From: Pimelobacter simplex
GTDB lineage: Bacteria > Actinomycetota > Actinomycetes > Propionibacteriales > Nocardioidaceae
Direction: 5' to 3'
DNA length: 64,000 nucleotides
Assembly: GCF_024662235.1 (NCBI RefSeq)
Contig: NZ_CP096276.1
Coordinates: 5,828,001-5,892,000, forward strand
Positions 54,603-58,854 of this stretch are shown here, piece by piece (within the stretch, counting starts at the first letter, position 1; each line of letters opens with the position of its first letter). Position numbers and translations under genes: made by a program. Below the pieces are notes generated by a model. The model was given only the letters and a program-made list of their open reading frames with translations, had not been told where the DNA came from and did no database searches.

Positions 54603-55553
54603 TCAGCGTCCGGCGGTGTCGAGGGCGGCCGCGGTCAGCGTCCGGCCGAGGTCGACGAGCTCCTCGGCGCGGTGGAAGTCGAGCGTGCGGGCGGCGCCGA
54701 GGGGGACCGTGACCAGCACGTCCGGGGGCAGCGCCGCCAGGCGGTAGCGGGTGATCAGGCTCTGCATCGCGTCGAAGGAGAGGGCGACCACCTCCGACGT
54801 ACGGACGTCGGGGCGGGCGGGGGACTCGGCCGGGGACTCGGCGGGCGCCTCCGGGCTGCCGATCGGGACGACGTCCGCGAGCTGGTCGGGCTCGGCGCCG
54901 AGGTCGCCGCGGCGGAACCGGCGGCGGAGCTCGGTGGCCCACTCGGTCGCCCACTCCGCCGTACGGACGGAGAAGCCGCGGGCCGGCGAGGACGGCTCGT
55001 GCGGCTCGCGGGGGCCTTGGAGCGAGACGGCGACGGTGAAGTCGGCAGCCGAGGCGGCGGTCGGGTCGAGGGGGAGCGGGTTGAGCAGCCCGCCGTCGAC
55101 GAGCACCCGCCCGTCGACCACGGCCGGCGTGAACAGGCCGGGGATCGCGATGGACGCCCGGATCGCCGGGATGAGCGGTCCGCGCTGGAACCACACCTCG
55201 CGGCGCGCGGCGAGGTCGGTCGCGACCGCGGTGAACGGGATCGCCAGGTCCTCGATGAGCAGGTCGCCGACGATCTCGTCGAGCGCCGACATCAGCCGCT
55301 CGGCGGTCGCCGCGCCGCCGCCGGACCAGGTCGGGTCGGCGAGGCGGACCACGCGGCGCTGGGTGAGCGTCGAGGCCCACGTCGCGAACTCCTCGTCCTT
55401 GCCGGCCGCGACGAGGCCGCCGACGAGCGCGCCCATCGACGTACCGGAGACGGCGACGATCTCGTGGCCGCGCTCGCGCAGCTCCTGGACCGCGCCGAGA
55501 TGGGCATAGCCACGGGCGCCGCCCGAGCCGAGGACCAGTGCGACGCGTGCCAT
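54603..55553 (-). CDS. patatin-like phospholipase (RssA type)
   Basis: The 316-residue protein has the oxyanion loop LGSGGARG (8-15), nucleophile Ser39 in GTSMG, and the DGG dyad motif (VLVDGGLLNPL, about residue 157). It would hydrolyse acyl esters in lipids; bacterial RssA-like proteins are poorly defined. The ATG at 55553 precedes the conserved core directly; upstream starts (55562) would add only a few residues. A tandem WATEWATE and PAESPAESPA duplication in the C-terminal half is a local repeat. It is just upstream of the glycolipid operon but has its own end. Confidence 0.9.
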   Translation of the reverse strand: MARVALVLGSGGARGYAHLGAVQELRERGHEIVAVSGTSMGALVGGLVAAGKDEEFATWASTLTQRRVVRLADPTWSGGGAATAERLMSALDEIVGDLLIEDLAIPFTAVATDLAARREVWFQRGPLIPAIRASIAIPGLFTPAVVDGRVLVDGGLLNPLPLDPTAASAADFTVAVSLQGPREPHEPSSPARGFSVRTAEWATEWATELRRRFRRGDLGAEPDQLADVVPIGSPEAPAESPAESPARPDVRTSEVVALSFDAMQSLITRYRLAALPPDVLVTVPLGAARTLDFHRAEELVDLGRTLTAAALDTAGR

Positions 55554-55614
55554 GCAGCCCATTCTCCGCACAGGGGGTGACATAGCCCAGGCGCGGCGGT
55601 GTCGTTGTGCTCAC

Positions 55615-57351
55615 ATGGGACGGCTGCGCGCGCTCACCTGGGTCTCCACGCTCGTCGGGTGTCTGGTGGTCGGAGGTGCGGCGGTGCCCTCGTCGGCGGC
55701 GCCCCCGTCGGCGGCACCTGCCCCGGGCGTGGTCACGGTCGACCAGCGGTTCACCGCCTCCGACGGCGTGTCCCTGCAGACGACGCTCACCAGTACCGGG
55801 CCGGTGACGGCCAAGCCGACGGTGGTCGAGTTCTCCCCCTACGGCGACGGGAGCGCGACGCTCCAGGTCGGGCCCGACTACAACTACCTCCTCGTCCAGA
55901 TCCGCGGCACCGGCGACAGCGACGGCGCGTTCGACGCCCTGGGCCCGACGAGCCAGCGCGACGTCGTCGAGGTGCTGCAGTGGGCGTGCACGCAGCCGTT
56001 CAGCGACGGGCGGCTCGCGCTCAACGGGTTCTCGGCGAGCGCGATCGTGCTCTACAACTCCTGGCACCAGGAGCTGCCCTGCGTGAAGGCGGCGATCCTC
56101 AAGTCCGGCACGCACGAGCTCTACCGCGACCTGCTCGTGCCCGGCGGCATCCTCAACCTCGTCCCCGGAGCGGGCGTCATCGCCATGATCGGCGCGCCCG
56201 CGCTGCTCCAGGGCGCCGACCGCCTGCAGCGCTCGCCCGGCTCGGTCCCCGACGTGCTCGGCGGCCTGTTCTCGAGCGGGTTCGGCGTCCTGCTGCACCC
56301 GACGCTCGACCAGTGGTGGCGCGAGCGCGGCTGGCGCGGGGACGCCAACGACATCCCGGTGCTGATGATCAACGGCTTCTACGACGTCGAGTCGCGCGGC
56401 GCCTTCCAGGCCTACCAGGCGCTGCGTGCCGACGGTGCCCACCTGGTGATGGAGGGCGGCCACGACGGCGTCCCCGTCGGCAGCGACGGCGGCCGGGGCG
56501 AGGCCGCCGCCTGGCTCGACCACTACGTGCGCGGCGTCGACAACGGGATCGAGAGCACGCCGCGGGTGAGCCTGCTGCTGGCGAAGGGCTCGCGCGCGTC
56601 GTACCTGGCGGGGGAGCACGTGCGCCGCGAGGCCGCCGACTGGCCCGTCCCCGGCACGCAGTGGACGACGCTGGCGCTCGCGCCGGGCCGCTCACTCGTC
56701 ACCGGGACCCCCGCGGCGACCGGGCTGGCGTCGTACCTGACGGTGCCTTCGCTGCCCACCGCGTCCGACGTACCCAATGCGGCGATCATCGAGGCCGGCG
56801 GCGCCAGCGCCCTCACCGGCGCCCTCCCGCTCCTCGCCGACAGCCGGCTCGCGGCGCTCGACGGCCTGACCGGGGTGAGCTTCACGACCAAGGCGCTCGG
56901 CGCCGACGTCGACCTCGCCGGACCCGTCGCGCTCGACCTCTCCCTCGCGACGACCACCCCCGGCACCGGCATCTGGGCGGTGCTCTCCGACGTCGCCCCC
57001 GACGGCTCGTCCCACCCACTCACCGTCGGCCGGCTCTCGACCAGCTATCCCGCGATCGACCCGGCCAAGTCGCTCGTCGTCGACGGCGAGGTCGTCCAGC
57101 CGTACGGCGACTACACCCACCCCGCGCCCGCCCGCACCGGTCAGTTCCGGCGCTACCAGGTGGAGCTGTGGCCGGTCGGCAACCGGTTCCGCGCGGGGCA
57201 CCGGATCCGGATCCAGCTCGTCGGCTCCTCGGTCGCCTCGCTGCTCGCGCTGCCGGGGCTGCACACCGTGCGGCTCGGGGGCGCGGAGGGCGCGGTGCTG
57301 CGGGTGCCGGTGCTGCCCGGGAGCGACCTGGGTGCGGCGCTGGCGCCCTGA
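55615..57351 (+). CDS. secreted CocE/NonD family hydrolase
   Basis: The ATG at 55615 gives 578 residues with a signal peptide (GRLRALTWVSTLVGCLVVGG…SSA). An alpha/beta-hydrolase domain follows with nucleophile Ser140 in NGFSASAIVL, the acid in NGFYDVES and the His in EGGHDG. The C-terminal half is the jelly-roll X-Pro dipeptidyl-peptidase C-terminal domain (VALDLSLATT, RYQVELWPVGNRFRAGHRIRIQLVGSS). Such enzymes cleave peptides, cephalosporins or cocaine-type esters; this one acts outside the cell. The upstream frame extension to 55552 is unlikely because it precedes the signal peptide. Confidence 0.88.
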   Translation: MGRLRALTWVSTLVGCLVVGGAAVPSSAAPPSAAPAPGVVTVDQRFTASDGVSLQTTLTSTGPVTAKPTVVEFSPYGDGSATLQVGPDYNYLLVQIRGTGDSDGAFDALGPTSQRDVVEVLQWACTQPFSDGRLALNGFSASAIVLYNSWHQELPCVKAAILKSGTHELYRDLLVPGGILNLVPGAGVIAMIGAPALLQGADRLQRSPGSVPDVLGGLFSSGFGVLLHPTLDQWWRERGWRGDANDIPVLMINGFYDVESRGAFQAYQALRADGAHLVMEGGHDGVPVGSDGGRGEAAAWLDHYVRGVDNGIESTPRVSLLLAKGSRASYLAGEHVRREAADWPVPGTQWTTLALAPGRSLVTGTPAATGLASYLTVPSLPTASDVPNAAIIEAGGASALTGALPLLADSRLAALDGLTGVSFTTKALGADVDLAGPVALDLSLATTTPGTGIWAVLSDVAPDGSSHPLTVGRLSTSYPAIDPAKSLVVDGEVVQPYGDYTHPAPARTGQFRRYQVELWPVGNRFRAGHRIRIQLVGSSVASLLALPGLHTVRLGGAEGAVLRVPVLPGSDLGAALAP

Positions 57352-57369: not shown

Positions 57370-57906
57370 TCACCGGCGCTCGATCCGGAACTTCACCGAG
57401 TCGACCTTCGGCGGCACCCGGAACGCCGCACGCGGCAGCGACCCGGTCACGGCGAGCCGGTAGCGCCGCCCGTGCCGGGCGGACGGCGGTCGCTCGACGA
57501 GCCGCCGCGCGGCCCCGCCCTGCAGTACCAGGTCCGCCCGCACCAGCCGGTCGCTGCCGAGCAGCAGCCGGACCAGCGCGGTCGTCGCGGCGTACGGCGG
57601 GTTGGCGACGACCCGGAACGGCTGCTGGGGGAGGCGCAGCTCGCGCAGGTCGCACCGGACGACGCGGAGCCCGCGGTCGCCGTACCGGGTGCGGAGGGCG
57701 GTGGCCCGCCCCTCGTGCAGCTCGACCGCGATCACCCGCGCCCCGCTCGCCAGCAGCGGACCGGTCAGCGCGCCGTCCCCGGCGCCGATGTCGAGCACCA
57801 GCTCGCCCGGCCCCACCTCCGCGGCCGCGACCAACCGCCGCGCGGCCTCAGGCCGAAGCGGATGCCACCCCCACGCCCGCCGCGACCCCTGCCCGGACCC
57901 GGCCAC
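57370..57906 (-). CDS. short Erm-like rRNA adenine N6-methyltransferase
   Basis: The 178-residue protein has the KsgA/Erm domain: HPLRPEAARRLV, motif I VLDIGAGDGALT (38-48), ELHEGRA, and the adenine-binding NPPY (102-105). After that it ends in RAAFRVPPKVDSVKFRIERR, shared by Erm proteins. The usual Erm length is about 250; here the C-terminal helical domain is missing. Erm(37) of Mycobacterium tuberculosis (179 residues) is similarly short and gives intrinsic macrolide resistance by methylating 23S rRNA near A2058. A similar role is plausible, but not proven. It starts at GTG and is divergent from the TetR gene across the repeat block. Confidence 0.8.
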   Translation of the reverse strand: MAGSGQGSRRAWGWHPLRPEAARRLVAAAEVGPGELVLDIGAGDGALTGPLLASGARVIAVELHEGRATALRTRYGDRGLRVVRCDLRELRLPQQPFRVVANPPYAATTALVRLLLGSDRLVRADLVLQGGAARRLVERPPSARHGRRYRLAVTGSLPRAAFRVPPKVDSVKFRIERR

Positions 57907-57981
57907 GACGCACCATCACGAAGAAGCTGTTCATGATCCGCGACCCTAGGCACCCCGCACCCACCCCGCACCCCCTTTTCC

Positions 57982-58180
57982 CCGAGGGCGCAGGGTTCCC
58001 CCGCCGAAGTAGCAAGGTTCCGCCCTCGAAGTAGCAGGGTTTCTCCGCCGAAGTCGCAGGCTTCCGGCGGCCAGGTCGCAGGTTTCTGGGGGCGACATCG
58101 CGGCGCGCCCTCGGGGGCGGAAACCTGCTACTTCGAGGGCGGAACCTTGCTACTTCGGCGGCTGGAACCTGCGCCCTCGG
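57982..58180. repeat. intergenic palindromic block of about 22-bp units
   Basis: The 303-base gap between the Erm-like and TetR genes holds about eight units of a 21-23 bp motif with core GAAGTAGCAGG. Five units run forward (57982-58090) and three run backward (58118-58180). The outermost parts are also related in inverted form. The centre is a perfect 38-bp inverted repeat: 58001-58038 against 58124-58161, 85 bases apart. In RNA this could make a very long stem. There is no gene in it. It could be a mobile extragenic repeat, a multiple binding array, or a structured RNA. Confidence 0.85.
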
Positions 58181-58206: not shown

Positions 58207-58224
58207 TGAGTGAGTGCTCACTCA
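58207..58224. promoter_or_regulatory. TetR-family operator
   Basis: TGAGTGAG, spacer TG, CTCACTCA is an 18-bp near-perfect palindrome directly before the TetR ATG at 58228 (and over the possible GTG at 58210). Size and place are typical of a TetR autoregulatory operator that also controls the downstream ABC exporter. Confidence 0.75.
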
Positions 58225-58227
58225 TTC

Positions 58228-58854
58228 ATGCTGGCCGACATGCCACCCCGCGCTGCGCCCTTGTCGCCCGAGGAGCGCCGGGAGGCGCTCATGGCGGCGA
58301 CGCTGCCGCTGCTCTACGACCACGGCCGGGGTGTCACGACTCGGCTGATCGCGGAGGCGGCGGGGGTGGCGGAGGGGACGATCTTCCGGGTGTTCGCGTC
58401 CAAGGACGAGCTCATCGACGCGACGGTCCGCAAGGCGTTCGAACCGGGGCAGATGCAGCGGGACCTGGCCGAGATCCCGGACGACGCCACGCTGCACGAG
58501 CGGGCGCTCGCGCTGGTGCGGATCATGCAGCGGCGGTTCGCGAAGTCGTTCCTGCTCCTCCAGCGGCTGGGCATGAACGGGCCGCCGGAGCCGCCGGACC
58601 AGAAGGGGGAGTGGCTGCGCCGGGTGCAGCAGACGACCGACGCGATGGTCGAGCTGATCAGCCCGTTCCAGGCCGAGCTCGCCCAGCCGGCCGCGCTCGT
58701 CGTCCGCAGCCTGCGGCTGCTGACGTTCTCGGGCACCCACCCCAAGTTCACCGGCGGTGACCTGCTCACCGCCGACCAGATCGTCGACCTGGTCCTGTAC
58801 GGCGCCGTACGCCGGACGCCCGCCTCCGCCGAGGCTCTCGAGGAGACCCACTGA
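58228..58854 (+). CDS. TetR family repressor
   Basis: From ATG 58228 the protein has 208 residues (GTG 58210 or ATG 58240 are alternatives; the operator placement favours a start after it). The N-terminal helix-turn-helix is RREALMAATLPLLYDHGRGVTTRLIAEAAGVAEGTIFRVFASKDELIDATV. A helical ligand domain follows. Its TGA overlaps the ATG of the first ABC exporter gene (TGATG), so it most likely represses its own operon and responds to an exported compound. Confidence 0.9.
   Translation: MLADMPPRAAPLSPEERREALMAATLPLLYDHGRGVTTRLIAEAAGVAEGTIFRVFASKDELIDATVRKAFEPGQMQRDLAEIPDDATLHERALALVRIMQRRFAKSFLLLQRLGMNGPPEPPDQKGEWLRRVQQTTDAMVELISPFQAELAQPAALVVRSLRLLTFSGTHPKFTGGDLLTADQIVDLVLYGAVRRTPASAEALEETH

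Follow-up and report, generated by a model that had tools for sequence, protein, structure and literature searches.

RAYTs are Y1 HUH transposases that act on hairpin REPs. Each known homing gene has one recognition site, into which it inserts, and the EDxHD/Vsr-like homing endonucleases include I-Bth0305I. Tn7-type ends carry 22-bp TnsB sites, and in Neisseria, minimal mobile elements and DUS-type inverted repeats occur between convergent genes. According to PMC7319586, AbiEi of S. agalactiae and Rv2827c of M. tuberculosis are autoregulators that bind 23-bp inverted repeats.

We analyzed 64,000 nucleotides of Pimelobacter simplex DNA, hereafter the window, in which an intergenic gap holds a block of inverted tandem repeats. 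This block is probably an inverted pair of tandem 22-bp arrays that stands alone, without a nuclease, and whose relatives flank mobile AbiEi-Vsr-like nuclease genes. Like REPIN-RAYT, the system has inverted repeats flanking a nuclease-type gene, many dispersed extragenic inverted pairs, and a species-specific repeat sequence; unlike REPIN-RAYT, its enzyme is AbiEi-like and Vsr-like rather than Y1 HUH, and its repeats are tandem 22-bp units. Given the different enzyme it is not a REPIN-RAYT system, and it may work like both REPIN-RAYT and homing genes. Unlike in homing genes of the I-Bth0305I type, arrays accompany the gene and also stand alone at many places. Compared with the AbiEi antitoxins, a nuclease domain is fused and the sites are arrays scattered over the genome; the Rmsd to the AbiEi structure 6y8q is 8.2, hence the domain placement differs. 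Like Tn7-type ends, the inverted ends of the elements carry several sites of roughly 22 bp. Intergenic repeats where other genes can be swapped in recall the Neisseria minimal mobile elements and DUS, from which the system differs by its tandem arrays and cognate nuclease, with no uptake role known. The partnership of nuclease and repeat array is apparently undescribed: a search of the open-access full-text literature found no description of it.

The window block and the dispersed array family

The block (57983-58179) is built of eight 22-bp units whose spacing is exactly 22. Five run forward and three in reverse, which bears out the unit counts given by a sequence-only reading of the window. 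It sits in a divergent gap, with an RrnaAD-type gene on the - strand and a TetR/ABC-exporter operon on the + strand. The features are as follows.

55552-57351, + strand: neighboring S15 peptidase gene (Pfam)
57370-57906, - strand: neighboring RrnaAD-family (Erm/KsgA-type) gene, outside the array family (Pfam)
57983-58092, + strand: five forward 22-bp units (57983-58004, 58005-58026, 58027-58048, 58049-58070, 58071-58092)
58001-58038, + strand: left arm of the perfect 38-bp inverted repeat
58093-58113, no strand: 21-bp centre separating both arms of the block
58114-58179, - strand: three reversed 22-bp units (58114-58135, 58136-58157, 58158-58179)
58124-58161, - strand: right arm of the perfect 38-bp inverted repeat
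58228-58854, + strand (longer ORF from 58210): neighboring TetR gene (TetR_N) of the exporter operon (Pfam)

The segment 58124-58161 is the exact reverse complement of 58001-58038, which bears out the perfect inverted repeat of that reading, and the larger 76-nt arms (57982-58057 and 58105-58180) match at 66 positions. The weakest, degenerate units are the first (outermost) and fifth forward ones and the outermost reverse one. The 11-mer GAAGTAGCAGG, with at most one mismatch, has six matches in the window, five of them inside the block; since 100 shuffles gave a mean of 0.28 and never six, the repeats are not due to chance. Pfam agrees with the Erm-like gene and TetR-exporter operon named earlier, placing RrnaAD on the - strand and, on the other side of the block, TetR_N and an ABC exporter gene on the + strand. 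The folding check proposed with the earlier reading gave z = -12 for the block as RNA.

Two smaller features lie nearby. A 28-codon ORF at 57848-57934 (- strand) begins MNSFFVMVRRGRVRAG. It shares sequence with the first part of the Erm-like gene, read in a different frame, and could be a leader peptide; the R-x-R motif is a macrolide arrest signal. Immediately before the TetR start, the perfect palindrome TGAGTGAGTGCTCACTCA (58207-58224), nearly constant across several relatives, is a probable TetR operator.

The block is not unique to this locus, nor is an array missing from the same site in a sister species, the double outcome that the sequence-only reading had named as speaking against mobile repeats. 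As a query against its own genome the block found eleven other loci at E 1e-5 or better, and a framework pattern spanning one and a half units matched at 96 places, against four for the reversed pattern; an operator present at one locus alone was rejected on these counts. A profile built on the same genome gave 35 arrays of at least two units in the fetched stretches, and 34 once retrained. The unit consensus reads CGARGT, five mixed bases, GGTT and a more variable tail, and the block scores with this profile (tandem CGARGT-N5-GGTT at 22-bp spacing, in inverted pairs); its membership of a dispersed family is close to certain. The window genome has two main unit types, A (that of the window block) and B (mostly GCTGG tails), and several A-type arrays include neighboring units of a third type, C, with tails CCGGCGGG. 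A first BLAST list hinted that arrays were confined to one half of the chromosome; the hint disappeared once B-type arrays were counted.

In what follows, G000 is the window genome, other G numbers (G0xx, G1xx, G2xx) are the compared genomes of the genus, and L numbers are loci. The framework is present in 13 of the 215 genus genomes, a count that uses a single unit framework and therefore misses other unit types; the reversed control matched once in each of two other genomes. Among 84,980 species genomes, a three-unit pattern found 53 stretches, all in Nocardioides or Pimelobacter. Rfam returned no family at gathering score for the block, the best being microRNA families at half of theirs or less. 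Behind several A-type arrays (L280, L287, L295, L297 and L278/L290 in G000, L391 in G086) comes another repeat, which contains a long palindrome (GTCAAGGAC ... GTCCTTGAC), along with a flank common to these arrays; the whole forms a larger composite repeat.

The AbiEi-Vsr-like nuclease and its arrays

The best candidate for a protein that recognizes the arrays has two halves, the one AbiEi-like and DNA-binding, the other a Vsr/I-Bth0305I-like endonuclease. With Foldseek alone only AbiEi fell below E 0.001 (I-Bth0305I 0.075, Vsr 0.085), and the I-Bth0305I and Vsr matches were strengthened only through VIA-align. Active-site-like residues are invariant; together with the fold they predict a catalytic domain of homing-endonuclease type. 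A sequence-profile search of the PDB matched no chain. Homologs at E 1e-15 or better occur in 121 of 394 genomes of the class; a search of phage records at 1e-5 found nothing, and among plasmid records there was one partial match at 1e-10, on an 11.85-Mb Nonomuraea record.

Arrays and nuclease occur together. With a cut of at least 53% identity, chosen once the list was known, close homologs are found in 16 of the 215 genus genomes: in 11 of the 13 array genomes (all except G034 and G179) versus 5 of the 202 others (Fisher 3.7e-13). This test, like all others here, is uncorrected for the relatedness of the species. A flank test run without a unit model detected a tandem array on at least one side at 48 of 62 nuclease loci, with period 22 at 38 loci; in the genus count with class-level loci added, arrays stand beside the nuclease at 53 of 63 loci, and at none of eight remote homologs. 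Periods at the genus flanks are mostly 21 or 22, some 31 or 32, and several of the ten genus loci scored as array-less show weaker periods of 21 or 22. As controls, 13 of 484 gene sides in 200-kb stretches (true arrays included) and 0 of 106 shuffled flanks were positive. TetR loci gave arrays on 9 of 60 sides, seven with period 22, as expected for a site with arrays in several species.

Where both sides carry arrays of the same period, the unit is shared in inverted orientation at 22 of 22 loci, with a mean inverted similarity of 0.80 against 0.50 for direct comparison and 0.50 between loci; this comparison excludes L444-L449, six loci that repeat genes already counted. Unit similarity grows with protein identity (31 period-22 loci, Spearman 0.29, Mantel p 0.001); below about 55% identity it does not differ from chance. 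Single flanks also show periods off two or three helical turns (17, 19, 23, 26, 33, 35, 37 and 39), the period-39 flank being a coding repeat by its look. Outside the genus, arrays flank the nuclease in other genera with quite different unit sequences: array-like flanks occur at 9 of the 15 best homologs versus 6 of 35 lower-scoring ones, one of these six resembling a coding repeat, so that the link fades among the latter. Four nuclease flanks in other families, L473 and L484 (family f41), L463 (f31) and L470 (f29), have a common GTGATCATGCA core at periods of 22, 32, 33 and 35.

When the solo arrays of each genome were matched to all nuclease flanks, the genome's own nuclease ranked first for G056, G100, G051, G092 and G086-B and second for G033 and G086-AC; it ranked fifth for G145 and fell outside the best five for G094, G116, G212 and G000-AC. 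The test included no nuclease of G034. The window units were closest to G056, followed by G116 and G086-AC. At the level of the family, the arrays are well supported as the DNA partner of AbiEi-Vsr proteins; for the window block itself the evidence is indirect. Its A-type units agree with no nuclease flank at more than 16 to 19 of 22 positions, the best flanks being in other species, and no nuclease that fits them was found; their cognate may have been lost or escaped detection. The B-unit nuclease is present in G086 and was not found in the window genome, which has two homolog matches, the close one flanked by C-type units.

Orthologous units have changed in concert. Seven orthologous pairs of B-type arrays in the window genome and G086 give 22 unit pairs, and position 18 differs in all 22, B units having T there in 71% of cases in the window genome and G in 97% in G086. 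The B label fixes TTGC at positions 14-17, and identity at those positions is therefore by construction. At variable positions the orthologous units keep their locus identity (0.636 versus 0.542 shuffled, p 0.0004). Whole-unit copying between loci, which would erase this identity, is ruled out as the sole cause of the concerted change, leaving an apparent position-by-position selection. These patterns point to a trans-acting protein that would read the array unit.

Placement, probable mobility and possible cargo

By our own gene calls, convergent gene pairs enclose 19 of the 35 multi-unit arrays, the remainder being divergent, tandem, unresolved or miscalled; the purpose-made gene caller sometimes chooses antisense ORFs, so that these context counts, like the gene contents between facing arrays, carry errors. 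In many arrays the first unit lies less than 30 nt after a stop codon. Six G092 arrays consist of three or four units, 2-4 nt, and then three reversed units, and unit heads point outward in nearly all inspected two-direction arrays, L394 being an exception. In a 200-kb stretch of the window genome 26 of 169 gaps are convergent; this stretch and its G086 ortholog, which were chosen for containing known arrays and are not independent, have arrays in 7 of 57 convergent gaps versus 1 of 288 others (p 1.7e-5). The tie to Erm-like and TetR promoters suggested by the sequence-only reading is not general, as other arrays follow stop codons; at the window's own site, G092 and G094 carry an array directly after the S15 peptidase stop codon, with no Erm-like gene.

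The arrays at the window's site differ among species. In G086 the unit is identical at 22 of 22 positions to the flank of that genome's nuclease L328, at 20 of 22 to the flank of L327, the window genome's own nuclease at about C1:3791340-3792311, and at no more than 16 to other loci. In G092 and G094 (L143 and L140), 21-bp-spaced units (CGACTTGGGGTTTG...) replace the 22-bp block and match the flank of the same genome's second nuclease at 17 and 18 of 21 positions, respectively, against a median of 13 of 21 across the 62 loci; L410 of G054 ties at 17 for the G092 unit, and the G092 flank gives 19 for the G094 unit. Across four genomes, the window's site thus seems to hold solo arrays of three kinds. 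Arrays are mostly at the same place in the window genome and G086; since orthologous arrays mostly stay put between these sister species, movement of solo arrays is not frequent.

Shared flanking genes sort the 62 nuclease loci into no more than 39 sites, an upper estimate because a locus could be joined to others only if it had two usable flanking genes. At one site, where an amidase gene faces a solute-binding-protein gene, six genomes have the order array-nuclease-array. The element begins 2-14 nt past the amidase stop codon, ahead of a hairpin, and in G100 a unit overlaps the stop. Three relatives (G168, G002 and G035) have the same two genes and the hairpin, with array and nuclease absent; G168 and G002 have no array at all, and G035, perhaps a vacated site, retains a pair of short fragments that resemble units. 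In the window genome and G042 the amidase has a different neighbor and no array. No target-site duplication was established for the array/nuclease elements.

Other genes are also found between arrays. A RidA-family gene (PF01042) stands inside a G086 array (L320, G086:C2:326947-327466) whose ortholog in the window genome is solo, and in G092 and G056 facing arrays enclose ordinary genes. Inspection of nine spaces enclosed by facing arrays showed TetR, sulfurtransferase, LysR/LysE, MFS and other genes, and neither a transposase, the DDE transposase TnsB included, nor Tn7-type target selection genes. In the gap that holds a solo array in the window genome (L275, G000:C1:2111963), G056 has a remote Vsr-like gene (L339, G056:C1:4902476) between two copies of a terminator-like hairpin.

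Competing explanations and significance

How might such arrays work? We propose that the AbiEi-like part would bind one unit per two helical turns (three in some relatives) and that the nuclease part would cut the array itself or DNA next to it. A second copy flanked by arrays would then serve as the repair template and bring the nuclease gene, or another gene between arrays, into the cut site. Solo arrays, the window block among them, would be sites still vacant or since vacated, and would be tolerated owing to their position between genes. Both cutting at the arrays and the spread of genes by repair are inferred. One point against this proposal is that, with dozens of solo arrays in its own genome as targets, the nuclease would do harm unless its cutting were restricted. 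The sequence-only reading had offered mobile repeats, binding sites of one regulator, or a structured RNA: the first two both gain support and seem to be one and the same thing, scattered arrays with relatives on the flanks of a mobile nuclease gene; the RNA option fares poorly.

The main rival is regulation or insulation by a bound protein. The AbiEi-like protein would then be mainly a regulator and the solo arrays regulatory or insulating sites at the borders of transcription units, with no cutting. The autoregulation of AbiEi and Rv2827c described in PMC7319586, the adjacency of arrays to the nuclease's own gene and the position-specific co-change of units all fit this explanation; most arrays, however, lie behind stop codons and not at promoters, invariant nuclease residues would be superfluous in a pure regulator, and different sites and cargo suggest mobility. 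We regard it as unlikely, yet as deserving more weight than a bidirectional terminator or polymerase roadblock between convergent genes. The enrichment in convergent gaps, and the fact that an incoming polymerase meets unit heads, speak for the latter, which is nevertheless improbable: a separate hairpin terminator precedes the array at one locus, the amidase-site terminator persists beside the element, the window block lies in a divergent gap, and at most about one in eight convergent gaps has an array, even in a stretch picked for arrays.

Two further explanations have very little probability. Copies that are dispersed, extragenic and species-specific would suit a MITE-like repeat that owes its spread to a RAYT-like enzyme or an unrelated transposase, the nuclease merely happening to sit in the arrays; but array sequence tracks nuclease sequence, arrays stand beside the nuclease even in genera with quite different units, and the genes inspected between arrays include no transposase. 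Slightly less probable still is a structured RNA, a long hairpin working in 3' regions. The strong fold of the block is in its favor; against it are the single-direction arrays, which exist and would form no hairpin, the failure of Rfam to return a family at gathering score, and the weak or absent matching of the arms at variable positions. In the window genome this matching is modestly beyond chance for outermost units (0.64 versus 0.53, p 0.001; innermost p 0.07), a value possibly raised by sets that mix A and B units; in G086 it is borderline (p 0.05 to 0.06), and the six arrays of G092 show none.

We return to the nuclease-linked inverted array pair as our preferred account of the block. 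A broader version of it, to which we give a shade less than an even chance, is that of an undescribed actinobacterial class of mobile nuclease elements whose ends are their own tandem binding sites, mostly phased at two or three turns. Solo arrays would be landing pads that exchange nuclease and passenger genes among gene 3' ends, each nuclease would keep its array sequence genome-wide, and the window block would be one such pad. With these arrays, a common and uncharacterized actinobacterial AbiEi-Vsr-like family gains a visible DNA partner, and its function becomes directly testable. The system would be a counterpart of REPIN-RAYT with an unrelated enzyme, and would offer a natural series of protein/site pairs with shifting specificity; its arrays are a possible route for the entry of genes into convergent gaps.
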